A DNA stretch of 64,000 nt from Anaerococcus sp. (GTDB taxonomy: Bacteria; Bacillota; Clostridia; Tissierellales; Peptoniphilaceae), in NCBI GenBank assembly GCA_030532385.1, contig JAUNLG010000006.1, positions 36,252-100,251 of the forward strand, given 5' to 3'. Position numbers and translations under genes: made by a program. Numbering within the stretch: the first letter of the stretch is position 1; each line of letters opens with the position of its first letter. The notes below the pieces were generated by a model, which saw only the letters and a program-made list of their open reading frames with translations, was not told where the DNA came from and searched no databases. Positions 43,538-54,269 of the stretch are shown piece by piece.

Positions 43538-44520
43538 ATCCTCTCCTTTACGCTATCTCTTTTCACAAGTACTGGCTTGATTAAAATTTTTTTCTTATCT
43601 ATAGTTTCTTTACTTAAAATTTTCTTAGATAAATCAATAACTTCTCTTGCAATCTCTTGGTGGTCTTGGTTAATAGTAGTAAGTCTTGGGCTTAATAAAT
43701 CACTTATAAATACATCATCATAGCCTACTACAGATAGGTCATTAGGAACATTTATATTATTTTCCTTACAGTATTTTATCAAACCAAAAGCCATCATATC
43801 GTTAAGGCAAAATACAGCATCTACTTTTCTTTGCAAAAGTTTTTTTGCATTTTCATAACCACTTTCAAAGGTGTAATTTCCATAAAAAATATTATTCTTA
43901 TCAAAATCTATATTCCTTATCTTAAAGTTTTTTAAAAATCCTTTGATCCTTTGGTTTGAGTTCATGGAGTCTTTCTCTCCAGCAATTAGACCAATATTTT
44001 TATAAGTATTATCCAAAAGATACTCAGAAACTATATATCCTCCCCTTTCATTATCACACGTTACAGTCATGCCCTCATCGTTTATCTCATCAAGGAAAAT
44101 AATCTTGTGCCTATCCCTAGTTTTAGAAGAAAAATTCTTAGCTCTCCTGTCGACAATTAAGGATAACTCTATAAAATTCTTCTCAACAAGGTCGAGAAAT
44201 ACTCTCTCATCAAAATTGCCAACACTTGAATTATATATATAAAGCCAATAACCTTCTTTTTCAAATAATACCGATAATTCTTTTGCCATAACTCCAAAAA
44301 ATGGGTTAGAAATGTCTGGAATAACTAAAAGAATGGCATTAGATCTTTTCATAACAAGACTTCTTGCTATGGGATTTGGAGAATAATTTAGTTTATTTGC
44401 AGCTTTAATAACTTTCTCTCGCGTTTTCTCACTTATTTTATTATCCCTATTGTTAAGTACCATAGATACTGTAGTGATCGATACATTCGCAAGTTTTGCT
44501 ACATCTTTTATATTTGCCAT
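43534..44520 (-). CDS. rbsR: LacI-family ribose operon repressor
   Basis: Likely ribose-responsive repressor of its own operon. 328 residues: LacI HTH NIKDVAKLANVSITTVSMVLN, hinge NYSPNPIARSL, then a periplasmic-binding-like sensor domain. First gene of rbsRKDACB, preceded by a consensus promoter bracketed by two AAAACGT palindromes. Confidence 0.9.
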   Translation of the reverse strand: MANIKDVAKLANVSITTVSMVLNNRDNKISEKTREKVIKAANKLNYSPNPIARSLVMKRSNAILLVIPDISNPFFGVMAKELSVLFEKEGYWLYIYNSSVGNFDERVFLDLVEKNFIELSLIVDRRAKNFSSKTRDRHKIIFLDEINDEGMTVTCDNERGGYIVSEYLLDNTYKNIGLIAGEKDSMNSNQRIKGFLKNFKIRNIDFDKNNIFYGNYTFESGYENAKKLLQRKVDAVFCLNDMMAFGLIKYCKENNINVPNDLSVVGYDDVFISDLLSPRLTTINQDHQEIAREVIDLSKKILSKETIDKKKILIKPVLVKRDSVKERI

Positions 44521-44532
44521 AATAACACCTAT

Positions 44533-44588
44533 TAAAACGTTTTAGTTATCTTTATATTCAATATAATACGTTTTCCCTGATTTGTCAA
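44533..44588 (-). promoter_or_regulatory. rbs promoter with two RbsR-like operators
   Basis: Minus-strand TTGACA (44583-44588), 17-bp spacer, TATATT (44560-44565). A perfect palindrome TAAAACGTTTTA lies at 44533-44544, about 10-20 nt below the start, and a related half-matching GAAAACGTAT lies in the spacer (about 44566-44575). Both have the CG-centred LacI-family form, so autorepression is expected. Confidence 0.75.
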
Positions 44589-44791
44589 ATTTTTTTATTA
44601 AAAAAACCTAATTAATAAATTTTGCAATCTCAAGTACCCTTATATAAATTAATCTTCTATCCTACTAGTTATAAAATTAAATGATATTCTAAACTAATAT
44701 AGGTCATATGAAAACTTAAGCCCAAAGGATTTCATGAAAATAAAAGCTTATTTGGTCATAAAATAACAAATACTTAAGATTATTCTGATTC

Positions 44792-44807
44792 TGTGAACTA
44801 GGTCACA
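44792..44807 (+). promoter_or_regulatory. CRP/FNR-family binding site upstream of the metal operon
   Basis: TGTGAACTAGGTCACA, an exact TGTGA-N6-TCACA palindrome, centred at 44799.5. Candidate -10 boxes TATGAT (44823-44828) and TAAACT (44828-44833) follow; the second gives the spacing used by class II activators. The window encodes one regulator of this family, at 51598. Confidence 0.7.
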
Positions 44808-44838
44808 GACTTATATATTATATATGATAAACTTTAGA

Positions 44839-45090
44839 TAGAAAGCGAGTAGTTGATCTAAGCTCCTACCCTTTCTACCATGACTTTCTTGAAATTGTTA
44901 ATTTTTTAAGATCCTAAGTCATGGCTTTGCTAAATGTTTTAAAATATTTAAGAACTTTAGCAAAACCCTAGTAAACTAAACCATTAATAAATTTTTATAG
45001 TTTAAAGATTTAGGGAATAGTTTACTTGCATATTAGGAAAGTGGTTCTCAAAGCTTAATCCTAGCTTACCAGGCATTTAGGTTAAAGCTT
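44839..45090 (+). ncRNA. structured 5' leader of the metal operon (candidate cis-RNA)
   Basis: About 280 nt separate the predicted transcript start from the first ORF, and they fold into successive hairpins: 44839-44845/44871-44877 (7 bp); 44878-44886/44916-44924 (9 bp); 44926-44934/44956-44964 (9 bp, extended inside with one mismatch); 44970-44978/45018-45026 (9 bp); 45051-45056/45085-45090 (6 bp). Bases 44972-44978 can pair instead with 44998-45004, so two exclusive folds exist. No known riboswitch consensus was recognised. A nine-codon ORF (44880-44909) sits in the second hairpin. Confidence 0.5.
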
Positions 45091-45122
45091 AAAATTTATT
45101 TAAATAAAATATCGGAGGAAAA

Positions 45123-45350
45123 ATGAAAAAAGCAAATATTAAATTAGAAGATTTAGCATGCCCATCATGTGCAATTAAGATAGAAAGTGCTGTAAAAGGT
45201 GTAGATGGTGTAGAAGATGATAGTGTAAAAGTTTTATTTAATGCTAGCAAGGTAAAAGTAAACTTTGATGAAGATAAAACTGATATTAAAGAAATAGAAG
45301 ATTCTATCCAAAAGATAGGCTATCAAGTAAAAAAATCAACCCTTAGATAA
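45123..45350 (+). CDS. heavy-metal-associated domain chaperone
   Basis: Single HMA (ferredoxin-like) domain of 75 residues with the metal-binding CPSC (Cys13, Cys16) after a LEDLA strand; the usual G-M-T before the first Cys is replaced by D-L-A. It probably hands metal to, or regulates, the P-type ATPase two genes on, which lacks an N-terminal HMA domain. Strong GGAGG Shine-Dalgarno. First gene of a three-gene operon. Confidence 0.88.
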   Translation: MKKANIKLEDLACPSCAIKIESAVKGVDGVEDDSVKVLFNASKVKVNFDEDKTDIKEIEDSIQKIGYQVKKSTLR

Positions 45351-45365
45351 ATAAAGGAGGAAAAG

Positions 45366-45653
45366 ATGGAAAAAATATATAAATTTAGAGATGAAAACTT
45401 TGACCTATTAGACCAATTTATGCCAATTGTAAAAAGAGTTCACGGGCAAAACCACCCAGAATTCTTTGAAGTAGCAGATATATACGATGATATTAAGGCA
45501 AAAATAGATAAAAAAGATTTAAACTTAGATAAAGAATTTAAACAACTTAAAGAAACTACAGATGATTACAAAATTCCCCAGGATGTATGTGAAACCTATG
45601 AGAAAATATATAAGGATTTGGAGAGTTTAAACAAGCTCTACCAAGAAAAATAG
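45366..45653 (+). CDS. hemerythrin-like fragment protein of unknown function
   Basis: 95 residues. It resembles part of the Ric/ScdA protein encoded at 52360: VHGQNHPE here (His26, His30, Glu32) against VHFENHGE there, and KIPQDVCETY here against KLPEDGCNTY there. It lacks the remaining hemerythrin ligands (the DH and H-x3-EN elements), so a normal di-iron site is unlikely. AAGGAGG precedes the ATG. It lies between the HMA protein and the P-type ATPase, so a metal-linked role is inferred. Confidence 0.75.
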   Translation: MEKIYKFRDENFDLLDQFMPIVKRVHGQNHPEFFEVADIYDDIKAKIDKKDLNLDKEFKQLKETTDDYKIPQDVCETYEKIYKDLESLNKLYQEK

Positions 45654-45660
45654 GGACCTT

Positions 45661-47511
45661 ATGCAAGCATTTGTATTCAAAAATAAAAATTATATAACCC
45701 TAATAAGTGGTATCTTAGTAGGACTAGGTCTAATAAACCACCTAGTCCTAGGTATACCAATGCTTACAGATCTTGCCTTTATTATAGGATCAATAATAGG
45801 TTTTATACCCATAGGCATCCAGGCGATAGGTGCTCTTAAGGTAAAAGTAATTAGTATTGATGTCCTAGTAAGTCTGGCTATAATTGGTGCCTTTATCATA
45901 AAAAATTATGAGGAATCAGCAATTGTCAGCTTCCTTTTCTTATTTGGTGGCTACCTTGAACAAAGGACCCTATCAAAAACACGTTCTGCCATTAGAGAAC
46001 TTTCAAAAATTGCCCCTGATATAGCCTATAAGCAAATGGATAATGGGGAGTTTGAAACAGTCGACATAGACGAAGTGGATATAGGAGATATTCTTCTTGT
46101 AAAAACCGGTGGCAAAATTCCAGTAGATGGAGAAGTTATCAAAGGCAAGGGTTATGTAAATGAGGCAAGTATAACCGGCGAGGCAAACTTTATAGAAAAA
46201 AACCAGGGGATTAAGGTTTTTGCTGGCACAATTCTTGAAAATGGTAGCCTTACAATAAGAGCTCAAAAGGTAGGAGAAGATACGACCTTTGGTAGGATTA
46301 TTGAGTTAGTAGAAGAAGCCCAGGACTCAAAATCTGAAGCAGAAAGATTCATAGACAACTTTTCTAAATACTACACTCCCCTAACCCTATTAATAGCCCT
46401 CACAGTCTATATTTTTACTAGAAATATTGAACTTGCGGTAACCATCCTAGTCCTAGGCTGCCCAGGTGCCCTAGTAATAGGAGTTCCTGTTTCAAATGTA
46501 GCAGGTATTGGAAATGGTGCCAAAAATGGTGTCCTCTTAAAGGGTAGCGAAATAATCAAAAGCTTTGCAAAAACTGATACCTTCATTTTTGATAAAACTG
46601 GGACCCTTACTGTAGGAAAACCACAGGTTCTAGATGCAAAATTCTATGAAGGTGAAGCCTATACAAAAGATCTTATAGTAAGTATCGAAAAAGAATCTGA
46701 CCACCCCCTAGCAAAAGCTATAGTAGAAAAATATGACCATGATAGGAAAATATACCCTATAACAAGTACCAATGTCATAAAGGGCGGGGGCATAAAAGCC
46801 CTGGTAGATGATAAAGAGGTCTTAGTTGGTAATTTAAAACTACTAGAAGAAAATAATATAAGCTTATCTGATGAAGTAAAAAATTTGGCGAAAGAATATG
46901 AAAAATCTGGTAATTCCATAATTGCAATTAGTATCTCAGGTAAGTTTTCTGCAATCTTTGCCATTAGAGACCAAGTCAGAGACCAAGCTAGAGAGAAATT
47001 AGAAGAATTAAAAAGACTTGGCGCAACAAATCTTATCATGCTATCTGGTGATAACCAAGGATCTGTAGATAATATAAAAGATGAGTTAGGGCTAACCAAG
47101 GCTTATGGCAACCTCCTTCCTGAAGATAAGGTAAACTTTGTCAAGAAAATGAAAGATCAAGGACACCTTGTAGCCTTTGTAGGAGATGGAGTAAATGATA
47201 GTCCATCATTGGCAAGCTCTGATGTAGCCATAGCCATGGGGTCTGGTACAGATGTAGCTATAGAAGTATCTGACCTAGTCTTAATGAAATCAGACCTAAG
47301 TAAACTTCCCCATGCCTATGCCCTGGCTAAGGCAACCTACAAAAATATGCTAGAAAATATAATAATAGCAGTAGGAACAGTAATATTCTTGCTAGCTTCA
47401 CTTATATTTTCAAATTGGATGAATATGTCAATAGGAATGTTTGTTCACGAAGCAAGCATATTAGCTGTAATACTAAATGGGATGAGACTTATTAAGTTTA
47501 AATTGAAATAA
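45661..47511 (+). CDS. P1B-type metal-transporting ATPase with CPG motif
   Basis: Metal export pump. 616 residues: membrane pairs near 10-50, 62-100 and 240-275, actuator TGE at 172-174, transmembrane metal motif CPG at 267-269, phosphorylation site DKTGTLT (Asp311), HP motif SDHPLAKA, hinge GDGVND, and a final helix pair. There is no N-terminal HMA domain. Zinc/cadmium and copper pumps normally have CPC; CPG is not one of the common variants, so the metal cannot be assigned. No arsR/csoR-type regulator adjoins it. Confidence 0.9.
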   Translation: MQAFVFKNKNYITLISGILVGLGLINHLVLGIPMLTDLAFIIGSIIGFIPIGIQAIGALKVKVISIDVLVSLAIIGAFIIKNYEESAIVSFLFLFGGYLEQRTLSKTRSAIRELSKIAPDIAYKQMDNGEFETVDIDEVDIGDILLVKTGGKIPVDGEVIKGKGYVNEASITGEANFIEKNQGIKVFAGTILENGSLTIRAQKVGEDTTFGRIIELVEEAQDSKSEAERFIDNFSKYYTPLTLLIALTVYIFTRNIELAVTILVLGCPGALVIGVPVSNVAGIGNGAKNGVLLKGSEIIKSFAKTDTFIFDKTGTLTVGKPQVLDAKFYEGEAYTKDLIVSIEKESDHPLAKAIVEKYDHDRKIYPITSTNVIKGGGIKALVDDKEVLVGNLKLLEENNISLSDEVKNLAKEYEKSGNSIIAISISGKFSAIFAIRDQVRDQAREKLEELKRLGATNLIMLSGDNQGSVDNIKDELGLTKAYGNLLPEDKVNFVKKMKDQGHLVAFVGDGVNDSPSLASSDVAIAMGSGTDVAIEVSDLVLMKSDLSKLPHAYALAKATYKNMLENIIIAVGTVIFLLASLIFSNWMNMSIGMFVHEASILAVILNGMRLIKFKLK

Positions 47512-51597: not shown

Positions 51598-52284
51598 ATG
51601 GAAGAATGCCAGCATTGCAAATCTCACAACCATTGCCTATCAAAGGTAAATTTGTTTAAGGAATTAGGGGTTGATGAGAGTAAAAGTATCTATCTTACAG
51701 CCTACCATAAGGATATTGAAAAAAACGATAGGGTTTTCTCCTTTAATGACCCAATTGATAAGCTTCTCATTTTAAGGTATGGGAAAATAAAGTCCCTTAT
51801 TTATGATGGAGAAGGTAGAGAAAACATTATCAAAATATACCTGCCTGGAGATATTATTGGAGAAAATTCTATTTTCTTAGACCAAGCCTACCAGGCTGAT
51901 GGGATAGCTATCGAAAAAACAGGAATCTGTGAAGTAGATAAGACAACTCTTAGACAAATCCTGGTAAAAGATATAGATTTTTCAATAAAAATGATTAAAA
52001 ACCTTAGTCAAAAGCTATATGAAAGTGAAAAGCTCTTAGAAATTGTTTCAATCAAGGATTCCTATAAGAGACTAGCAGCCTTCTTAGCCTATAGGTCTTC
52101 TCTTACTCAAAATAACCATGTTGAACTAAACCAAGAAAATATCGGATTTTCTATAAACCTTTCTAGAGAGACTGTATCAAGAAGGCTTACAAAACTTGAG
52201 CAAGAAGGCTACATTGAGCAATCTGCCTACAAAAAAATTAAGATAAAAGACCTTAGAGGCTTAATTAATTTGTCAAATACTTAA
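51598..52284 (+). CDS. FNR-like iron-sulfur regulator with CRP-like recognition helix
   Basis: 228 residues. Cys4, Cys7, Cys13 (C-x2-C-x5-C) and Cys111 align with the four cluster cysteines of FNR (20, 23, 29, 122), Cys111 in GICEVDKTTL like FNR's VCEIPFETL. This predicts a 4Fe-4S sensor of O2 or NO. Cyclic-nucleotide-fold about 30-130, dimer helix 125-150, HTH about 175-205. The recognition helix reads LSRETVSRRL: Arg190, Glu191, Arg195 match CRP (Arg180, Glu181, Arg185), while Ser194 is FNR-like. It lies between perR and ric-fprA with AGGAGG before the ATG. Confidence 0.9.
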   Translation: MEECQHCKSHNHCLSKVNLFKELGVDESKSIYLTAYHKDIEKNDRVFSFNDPIDKLLILRYGKIKSLIYDGEGRENIIKIYLPGDIIGENSIFLDQAYQADGIAIEKTGICEVDKTTLRQILVKDIDFSIKMIKNLSQKLYESEKLLEIVSIKDSYKRLAAFLAYRSSLTQNNHVELNQENIGFSINLSRETVSRRLTKLEQEGYIEQSAYKKIKIKDLRGLINLSNT

Positions 52285-52287
52285 AAG

Positions 52288-52303
52288 TGTGACCTATGAC
52301 ACA
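52288..52303 (+). promoter_or_regulatory. CRP/FNR-family site upstream of ric-fprA
   Basis: TGTGACCTATGACACA, a TGTGA-N6-(T)CACA type palindrome with one mismatch, centred at 52295.5. The -10 TATACT lies at 52325-52330, so the site centre is 41.5 bp above the expected start: the class II activator position. Confidence 0.75.
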
Positions 52304-52324: not shown

Positions 52325-52330
52325 TATACT
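52325..52330 (+). promoter_or_regulatory. ric-fprA promoter -10
   Basis: TATACT, with no good -35 at 17 bp, as expected for an activator-dependent promoter. Start near 52337. Confidence 0.6.
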
Positions 52331-52359: not shown

Positions 52360-53064
52360 ATGATAAGTATAGATACAAAAATAGAAGAGATTGTAAAATT
52401 AGACAATAAAATGATGGAATTTTTCAATCAAGAAAAAATAGATTTTTGTTGTCAAGGATATAAGACAATTAAGAATGTAGCTGATGAAAAAAATCAAAAT
52501 CCAAGTGACCTCCTTAATAAAATTGGAGATGCTATTGACCTAGCAAACACAAAAGATCAGTCATCCCCTATTGACCTTGAGGAATTTAAAAAGTTATCAA
52601 TGGATGAGATGATAGAATCTATTATAAAAGACCACCATCAAAGAGAAAGAGATTATCTTTTTGAAATAGATCCTATTCTAAATAAGATATTATCAGTTCA
52701 TTTTGAAAATCATGGAGAAGAACTATTAAAGCTTCATTCCCTATTTGCAGACCTTAAAAAAGAATTAGAAGAACACTTTGTAAAAGAAGAGCAAGTAACT
52801 TTTCCTTTGATGAAAGCCAATCAAAATCCAAGCAAGGCGATCATCAAAAAGGTAGAAGATTTGGAAACTGACCATGAAAAAGCTGGTGAAATTATCAAAG
52901 AAATGATAGAAATGACCGATTGGTTTAAGCTTCCAGAAGATGGATGTAACACATACAAATTGACCTTTGAACTTTTAGAAAAACTGGTTAAAGATGTATT
53001 TGTTCATATATTCAAAGAAAATTCGATACTATTTGAAATTTATAAAGAAAAAGGAGAAAATTAA
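52360..53064 (+). CDS. ric: iron-sulfur cluster repair di-iron protein Ric/ScdA
   Basis: Repairs Fe-S clusters damaged by NO or oxidants. 234 residues: N-terminal ScdA domain (about 1-58) with the tandem Cys in FCCQG, then a hemerythrin-like bundle with ligands in DHH (91-93), VHFENHGE (114-120), EEHFVKEE (about 137-144), DHEKAG (about 171) and VHIFKEN (about 215-221). GGAGG before the ATG. The next gene starts at its stop codon (TAATG). Confidence 0.93.
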   Translation: MISIDTKIEEIVKLDNKMMEFFNQEKIDFCCQGYKTIKNVADEKNQNPSDLLNKIGDAIDLANTKDQSSPIDLEEFKKLSMDEMIESIIKDHHQRERDYLFEIDPILNKILSVHFENHGEELLKLHSLFADLKKELEEHFVKEEQVTFPLMKANQNPSKAIIKKVEDLETDHEKAGEIIKEMIEMTDWFKLPEDGCNTYKLTFELLEKLVKDVFVHIFKENSILFEIYKEKGEN

Positions 53065-54269
53065 TGAAAAAGCAAGTTCTAAACAATGTATACTGGGTTG
53101 GTAAAATGGATTGGGAATTGGAAGAATTCCACGGGTCTGAATTTTCTGTCCACCACGGATCTAGCCAAAATGCTTATCTTGTCAAAGAAGAAAAAACTGT
53201 ACTAATAGATACAGTTTGGACCCCACATAAGGAAGAATTTGTCAAAAATCTAAAAAGCGAAATTGACCTTAAGGAAATTGATTATATAGTACTAAACCAC
53301 GGAGAGCCTGACCATAGTGGATCTTTGCCTGAGATAATGGAAGAGATTCCTGATACTCCAATCTATTGTACAAATAATGGTAAAAAATCTCTAATTGGCC
53401 AATACCACCATCCAGAATGGGACTATAGGACAGTAAAAACTGGAGATAGTATAGACATTGGTAATGGTAAATCTCTAGTCTTTGTAGAAATGACCATGCT
53501 CCACTGGCCAGATTCTATGGCAACCTATATGACAGGTGATAATATCCTATTTTCTAATGATGCCTTTGGCCAACACTATGCCCTAAATGAATTATTCAAT
53601 GATCAAGCAGACCAAACCATCCTTTGGAATGAGGCTATGAAATACTATGCCAACATCCTTACCCCATTTTCTGCCTTTGCAAGCAAAAAAATAAAGGAAA
53701 TTGTGGGCATGAACCTTCCTATAGATATAATTGCTCCAAGCCATGGTAGTATTTGGAGAGAAAACACCCTAGAAATTGTAAATAAATATGCTCAATGGGC
53801 TGATTCCTATAAGGAAGACCAAGTTACAATAATCTATGACTCTATGTGGGGCGCAACTCAAAAGATTGCTCACAAGATAGCAGAAGATATTAGAGAGCTT
53901 AGCCCATCAACTAGAACCAAGGTCTTATCTGTAGTAGATGCTGATAGAAATGATATAATGACAGAAGTATTTAAGTCAAAGGCTATTGCCCTAGGATCAC
54001 CAACAGTTGGTAGGTCTGCCATTACTACAGTATCTGGATGGCTCCACTTCCTACAAGAGCTAAAGTTTAAAGACAAAGTAGCAGGAGTATTTGGATCATA
54101 TGGATGGTCAGGTGAAGGAAACAAGGTCCTAAGAGAAGAACTTACTAAGGCTGGCTTTGAAGTAATCGATGACGAATTGAAGGCTATGTGGATGCCAGAT
54201 GATGAATTCCTAGCAAATACCAAGGAATTTTCCAAAGCCCTACTAGATGCATCAAGTCTAGATAAATAA
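53064..54269 (+). CDS. flavodiiron protein (FprA type, O2/NO reductase)
   Basis: Reduces O2 to water or NO to N2O. 401 residues: metallo-beta-lactamase domain with di-iron ligands HGEPDH, MLHWPDSM, NDAFGQH and APSHGSIW, then a flavodoxin domain from about 255 with FMN loop DSMWGATQKIAHKIAE. No rubredoxin domain is fused, so it needs a separate electron donor. Overlaps ric by one base (TAATG). Confidence 0.95.
   Translation: MKKQVLNNVYWVGKMDWELEEFHGSEFSVHHGSSQNAYLVKEEKTVLIDTVWTPHKEEFVKNLKSEIDLKEIDYIVLNHGEPDHSGSLPEIMEEIPDTPIYCTNNGKKSLIGQYHHPEWDYRTVKTGDSIDIGNGKSLVFVEMTMLHWPDSMATYMTGDNILFSNDAFGQHYALNELFNDQADQTILWNEAMKYYANILTPFSAFASKKIKEIVGMNLPIDIIAPSHGSIWRENTLEIVNKYAQWADSYKEDQVTIIYDSMWGATQKIAHKIAEDIRELSPSTRTKVLSVVDADRNDIMTEVFKSKAIALGSPTVGRSAITTVSGWLHFLQELKFKDKVAGVFGSYGWSGEGNKVLREELTKAGFEVIDDELKAMWMPDDEFLANTKEFSKALLDASSLDK

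Follow-up and report, generated by a model that had tools for sequence, protein, structure and literature searches.

A four-cysteine clostridial Crp/Fnr protein with a mixed recognition helix is a probable activator of iron-sulfur repair, NO/O2 removal and metal export genes in Anaerococcus

Within a 64,000-nucleotide stretch of an Anaerococcus sp. genome (hereafter the window), a gene for a 228-residue Crp/Fnr regulator (51598..52284, + strand) is preceded by genes for a catalase, a DUF454 protein and a Fur family protein, and is followed by genes for RIC, the di-iron protein of iron-sulfur cluster repair, and for an FprA-type flavodiiron protein. Anaerococcus is a strictly anaerobic genus; the assembly that holds the window comprises 1.39 Mb and is 82% complete. 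The locus raises the question of which sites on DNA this regulator reads, which genes it controls from them, and which signal it senses. A preliminary description of this DNA had suggested an FNR-type iron-sulfur sensor of O2 and NO whose CRP-type recognition helix binds TGTGA half-sites upstream of two operons in the window.

The regulator is a member of the Crp/Fnr superfamily, containing a cNMP-binding-like domain (PF00027, 58.8 bits; cut-off 27.5) and a Crp-type helix-turn-helix (PF13545, 50.5 bits; cut-off 27). It is not an orthologue of FNR by score or in a quick tree: its top NCBIfam model was Fnr (NF008365), matched at 67.8 bits, far below the cut-off of 228, and the tree placed it within a clostridial clade, outside which E. 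coli FNR formed a long branch. Of the tree proposed in the preliminary description, the separation from E. coli FNR was obtained, in a quick analysis that covered clostridial relatives together with FNR, CRP and the second Crp/Fnr protein of this genome (L002), the last three lying on long branches. The top PDB match was 8qto, an FNR-type regulator of A. fischeri. L002 (G000:C10:67414-68049) is a 215-residue protein without the FNR cysteines, and its helix, TTRPSVSR, is of the Pro-181 type seen in HcpR2; by eye, its neighbors are a 103-residue ORF resembling an ArsR-type repressor and a 347-residue membrane protein.

The regulator contains only four cysteines (residues 4, 7, 13 and 111), none of them after residue 111, and these align with C20, C23, C29 and C122 of E. 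coli FNR. Both FNR features, a C-X2-C-X5-C motif near the N-terminus and a distal equivalent of C122, are therefore present, and the earlier reading of the cysteine spacing holds. Residues 1-30, which include three of the four cysteines, are poorly predicted in the structural model (pLDDT block means of 51-60). To survey relatives, species genomes were scanned with a helix-led pattern, RETVSRK, which yielded 69 named loci, by title mostly from Clostridia or Tissierellia (plus one Erysipelotrichaceae, two Spirochaetes and one Neomarinimicrobiota); 64 rows, window included, were kept. Neither the cysteines nor the operators entered into the selection of this set. Cys111 occurs in 62 of the 64 rows, and at least three N-terminal cysteines plus Cys111 in 56, with the N-terminal spacing being X2-X5 in 11, X2-X4 in 16, X2-X2 in 6 and other in the rest; two rows (L132 and L136) have the helix without these cysteines. 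Among ten other Crp/Fnr loci, four with RETVSRK carry the cysteines and five lack them (four with RETMSRK or RETISRK, and L002 with TTRPSVSR), while L026 is intermediate. Judged by these counts in the 64 rows and the ten other loci, FNR-type cysteines together with a CRP-type helix are common among clostridia.

From the conserved cysteines we infer a [4Fe-4S] cluster as the sensor. The same residues could instead form a thiol/disulfide or Zn switch without a cluster, as has been proposed for Flp, FNR-like proteins found in lactic acid bacteria. In the accessible portions of the literature on which this and later comparisons draw (besides PMC9268430: PMC1274295, PMC12915319, PMC5398030, PMC2883068, PMC5039431, PMC3520743, PMC12531629, PMC12345214 and PMC9052748), Gram-positive FNR-like proteins often have two cysteines and their cluster is debated, and a cluster might not be needed for the activity of L. 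casei Flp. Only two N-terminal cysteines are found in 6 of the 64 rows. Nevertheless, with the full set of at least four cysteines, aligned with those of FNR, in the regulator and in the 56 rows counted above, and with an Fe-S repair gene among the linked genes, we regard such a switch as unlikely here.

DNA recognition by the two reference proteins differs: CRP contacts TGTGA via Arg180, Glu181 and Arg185, and FNR contacts TTGAT via Glu209, Ser212 and Arg213. In alignment, the helix of the regulator (SRETVSR within LSRETVSRRL) lies against LTVETISRLL of FNR (V208, E209, S212, R213) and CSRETVGRIL of CRP (R180, E181, G184, R185), so that R190, E191 and R195 make up the CRP set and S194 is FNR-like, confirming the mixed helix described earlier. 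Residues R190, E191, T192, V193, S194 and R195 are invariant in an alignment of 19 rows (A1); helix conservation in the 64 rows, by comparison, is a product of selection, because the search pattern fixed RETVSRK. The G85-E87 region of FNR is AR3, which contacts sigma, and in the loop that occupies this region, G73-x-E75, G73 is kept in 64 of 64 rows and E75 in 63.

The regulator gene travels with its downstream neighbors. Of 130 genomes in the family search, 65 have a match to the regulator at E 1e-10 or better, and identity to it reaches 53% or more at 12 places, one of them the window. In 20 family loci hand-picked among the best matches (19 plus the window), RIC adjoins the regulator on its downstream side in 17, and the order regulator-RIC-FprA is found in 14; of the proteins of the window that were compared, the two found again next to the regulator in relatives were RIC and FprA. 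Of the 69 named loci, 35 have a RIC homologue no more than 700 nt downstream of the regulator. In the window, RIC (ScdA_N plus hemerythrin; 52360..53064, + strand) matches TIGR03652 at 188.1 bits, below the cut-off of 204.7, and FprA, of the NO/O2 reductase family (53064..54269, + strand), matches NF008887 at 595.6 bits, below the cut-off of 635. One relative, L047 (G032), has a second, broken regulator copy with its own operator and a short piece of RIC, and a full-length FprA gene upstream of the whole regulator copy. In other relatives (L086, L096, L110, L107, L122 and L123), DUF438-hemerythrin(-PAS) and DUF1858 proteins recur beside the regulator clade, which suggests that they have a part in NO/Fe-S defense.

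A candidate operator, TGTGACCTATGACACA (52288..52303, + strand; one mismatch), begins 3 nt past the regulator stop codon, and a predicted -10 element, TATACT (52325..52330, + strand), lies 21 nt beyond it; by eye, no -35-like hexamer was seen near TATACT. The center of the site, between 52295 and 52296, corresponds to a predicted -41.5. Class II activation by CRP and FNR involves a site centered at -41.5, and the predicted -10 would thus put this operator at the class II position. Most close relatives have TGTGA-N6-(A/T)CAC(A/G)GA a few bases past the stop codon of the regulator, followed at a constant distance by a -10-like hexamer. A strict pattern, TGTG-N8-CAC(A/G)-N21-TANNNT, was found after the regulator in 14 of the 20 family regions, with two more having it at one mismatch and four lacking it, compared with 0 or 1 of 4000 mononucleotide shuffles for each of the 20.

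In the 64 rows, the strict pattern occurs in 15 (shuffles: mean 0.005, at most 1), and a looser pattern, worded after inspection of the sequences, in 45 (200 shuffle runs: mean 0.59, maximum 3). Although the looser pattern permits spacings of 20-22, a spacing of 21 was seen in all but one of these 45 rows (44). L121, which is 78.9% identical to L116 and was left out of the 64 rows, shares the downstream site of L116; its inclusion would give 46 of 65. The remaining 19 rows have no such site at that place; among them, L084 and L085 carry TGTGC..GCACA. Where the regulator is more distant, sites 20-21 nt from a -10 precede genes for RIC (L088), DUF438-hemerythrin proteins (L086 and L096) and DUF1858 proteins (L107, L122 and L123).

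The operator of the wider family is not simply TGTGA. Set against TTGAT-N4-ATCAA, the sequence recognized by E. coli FNR, linked sites are TGTGA-like in the regulator's own clade and often TTTGA or GTTGA in distant relatives. Of the 45 rows with a site, 23 have TTTGA, GTTGA or a similar sequence as the upstream half; in the promoter-side half TCAC predominates (C in 37 of 45, A in 8). The preliminary claim of TGTGA half-sites is supported for the window, where such operators lie upstream of both operons at a promoter spacing that is kept in relatives, and is too narrow for the family. The second base of the upstream half-site was compared with residue 189 (S or T with G, A or R with T), and 39 of 45 rows agree. 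On the tree this pairing comprises only three independent contrasts, with which a sign test cannot reach significance, and for that reason we treat it as no more than a lead.

The second operator, TGTGAACTAGGTCACA (44792..44807, + strand; no mismatches), is located 20 nt before a predicted -10 element, TAAACT (44828-44833, + strand), which would center it at -40.5. The genes downstream, all on the + strand, encode a 75-residue HMA metal-binding domain protein, the first of the operon (45123..45350), a 95-residue protein (45366..45653) with no Pfam match and a partial RIC profile match (TIGR03652, 44.1 bits, positions 165-199 of 216), and a P1B-type heavy-metal P-type ATPase identified by profile matches (45661..47511). 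In a set of ten operons, the window and nine related ones that were fetched, a site of the looser kind lies upstream of the ATPase in eight (all except L180 and L182; shuffles: mean 2.06, at most 6), and a site with a -10 at 20 or 21 nt in five (mean 0.61, at most 3). The second-operon pattern therefore has a sizeable chance rate. A regulator homologue is in the same stretch as the ATPase operon in four of the nine related loci, and a fifth (G098) was located by genome search; in T. saccharolyticum (L129), genes for an HMA protein and ORFs matching the ATPase come after the regulator gene.

Other features of this operon were recorded. Between the predicted promoter and the HMA gene is a leader (44808-45122) of some 290 nt with hairpin-like repeats by eye, and in G083 a regulator gene occupies its place before HMA. 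No regulator-gene remnant was found in the leader (best tblastn E 0.46), and an Rfam search over 44500-45400 gave one match, under the gathering score (E 0.53). P1B ATPases have a transport motif with the consensus CPC/SPC; at the expected place the window ATPase (45661-47511) reads GCPGALVIGVPVS, so that one metal-binding cysteine would be glycine. The ATPase travels with the HMA protein and with the 95-residue protein that bears the RIC-like stretch.

Both TGTGA-type sites named in the preliminary description are present in the sequence, at 44792 and 52288. The motif alone is not enriched: TGTGA-N6-TCACA was found in 17 places in the window at up to two mismatches (shuffles: mean 20.8) and in 12 places in the genome at up to one mismatch (reversed control: 19), and we do not use these counts as support for that reason. 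Of the 12, the two window sites are the clear intergenic ones; nine of the other ten lie inside ORFs of at least 178 residues, and the last (L034) is beside a T-box-leader-like sequence, in or near an 85-residue ORF. As judged from the sequences, what sets the two window sites apart from chance matches is their position and their conservation in relatives. In this genome the strict composite was found a single time, at the RIC promoter (reversed control, 0). Across the family it is found in at least one place in 71 of 130 genomes, many of them without the regulator, and the reversed control matches in many as well, so single matches elsewhere prove nothing. In three genomes (G009:C1:113065, G018:C2:1352508 and G055:C6:307472), TGTGATTNAAATCAC(A/G) sites lie some 3 kb away from other Crp/Fnr genes, for which alignment to the query starts at residue 19-41; this is perhaps a different regulon.

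The sites might belong to another protein, since this genome encodes a Rex-type domain as well as the second Crp/Fnr protein, and since S. aureus Rex, in the published excerpts, binds TTGTGAA-N4-TTCACAA, a sequence that contains TGTGA-N6-TCACA. Compared with the Rex core, the site at 44792 has one different base, with two further differences at the outer positions. Rex, however, is a repressor, whereas the site lies at a fixed activator distance after the regulator gene in the 45 of 64 rows, and the RIC site has, as its promoter-side half, ACACAGAA, which does not fit Rex; on these two grounds Rex was set aside as the owner. As for the second Crp/Fnr protein, helices of its Pro-181 type were linked by Rodionov, in the accessible text, to GTAAC-N4-GTTAC. 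We consider ownership by either protein very improbable.

Taken together, these data lead us, with reasonable though not full confidence, to a model in which the regulator is a class II activator acting on TGTGA-N6-(A/T)CAC(A/G)-type operators. Bound at -41.5 it would turn on RIC-FprA, and from -40.5 it would turn on the HMA/P1B-ATPase operon; activation from these positions is well supported by the predicted spacing, and recognition of TGTGA-type sites by the regulator is supported by linkage. The four cysteines would most likely hold a [4Fe-4S] cluster, NO or O2 would change the state of the cluster and so gate DNA binding or activation, and the output would probably be Fe-S repair, NO/O2 removal and metal export. 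Binding by the regulator, activation, the cluster and the signal are the parts of this model that we infer.

The polarity of this putative sensor can be read in two ways. Residue D154 of FNR keeps apo-FNR monomeric, and an aspartate at the aligned position is found in none of the 64 rows. This would suit a separate clostridial FNR-like clade of inverted logic, in which the intact [4Fe-4S] cluster is the off state, damage by NO, O2 or metal leads to class II activation of RIC, FprA and metal export, and the mixed helix (CRP Arg, FNR Ser) reads FNR-like or CRP-like upstream halves with a promoter-side half that is mostly TCAC. An activator that worked as FNR does would shut repair off once its cluster was hit, and, in the accessible portions of the reports, ric genes of studied organisms are induced by nitrosative or oxidative stress (PMC9268430) and cluster-free Fnr of B. 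cereus binds DNA. Conversely, the four-cysteine architecture is that of FNR, and the same literature describes B. subtilis Fnr as needing its cluster and H. influenzae FNR, active at low oxygen, as a positive regulator of ytfE. Because H. influenzae FNR acts in this way on ytfE, FNR-like polarity, in which the intact cluster is active and the genes are on in anoxic cells, seems the likelier of the two by analogy, and inverted logic, though a serious possibility, is rather doubtful. The locus makes both the sensing of Fe-S damage by strict anaerobes and a reversed polarity of an FNR-type protein testable, and it places RIC with a flavodiiron gene, a likely regulator and a conserved activator-type site across many anaerobes.

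Comparison with known systems delimits what is new here. Like E. coli and A. fischeri FNR, the regulator has four cysteines in matching places and equivalents of Glu209, Ser212 and Arg213; unlike E. coli FNR, to which it is 26% identical, it has Arg for Val208 and linked sites of the TGTGA type. With E. coli CRP it shares equivalents of Arg180, Glu181 and Arg185 and TGTGA half-sites, but it has Ser194 for Gly184 and is 25% identical. B. subtilis Fnr uses TGTGA sites as well. According to the portions of the literature available, the Fnr proteins of B. subtilis and B. cereus are [4Fe-4S] members of the Crp/Fnr family, the ligands being C-terminal cysteines, joined in B. subtilis by an aspartate, and not N-terminal cysteines; the regulator, with no cysteine after residue 111, lacks those C-terminal ligands. 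In the same sources, DNA binding by B. cereus Fnr is described for the protein with and without its cluster, and T. tengcongensis Crp2, for which a CRP-like site was predicted at hcp, is termed an orthologue of B. subtilis FNR. An Fe-S Crp/Fnr protein with CRP-type sites is therefore not new in itself: the iron-sulfur sensor of the preliminary description, to which the cysteines conserved in relatives lend weight, has precedents in Crp2 and Bacillus Fnr.

The NO-defense regulators offer further parallels in the accessible text. HcpR1 of Desulfovibrio and HcpR2 resemble the regulator in having NO-defense regulons and, for Desulfovibrio, the motif wTGTGAnnnnnnTCACAw; the cysteine motif of FNR is absent from HcpR1, HcpR2 and DNR (Rodionov 2005), which agrees with the earlier remark that HcpR proteins are not all four-cysteine FNR look-alikes. 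Assignment of the regulator to HcpR1 or DNR is excluded under this published rule by its cysteines, and assignment to HcpR2 by Glu191, where HcpR2 proteins have Pro (or Ser or Gln) at CRP position 181. DnrD of P. stutzeri, a DNR-type member of the FNR family, is a positive regulator of ric (PMC9268430). H. influenzae FNR likewise positively regulates a RIC gene, ytfE, from a predicted FNR site, but it is a classical FNR, and in the text available no flavodiiron linkage or TGTGA sites are reported for its ytfE regulon. No published account of the RIC-linked regulator clade was found in searches of an open-access collection, which lacks most subscription papers. Because DnrD and H. influenzae FNR already control ric positively, the new part is the clade, the mixed helix with its operator and the linked regulon. 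In the sources at hand, the closest parallels are Bacillus-type Fnr, with its ligands at the other end of the protein, and the link between H. influenzae FNR and ytfE.
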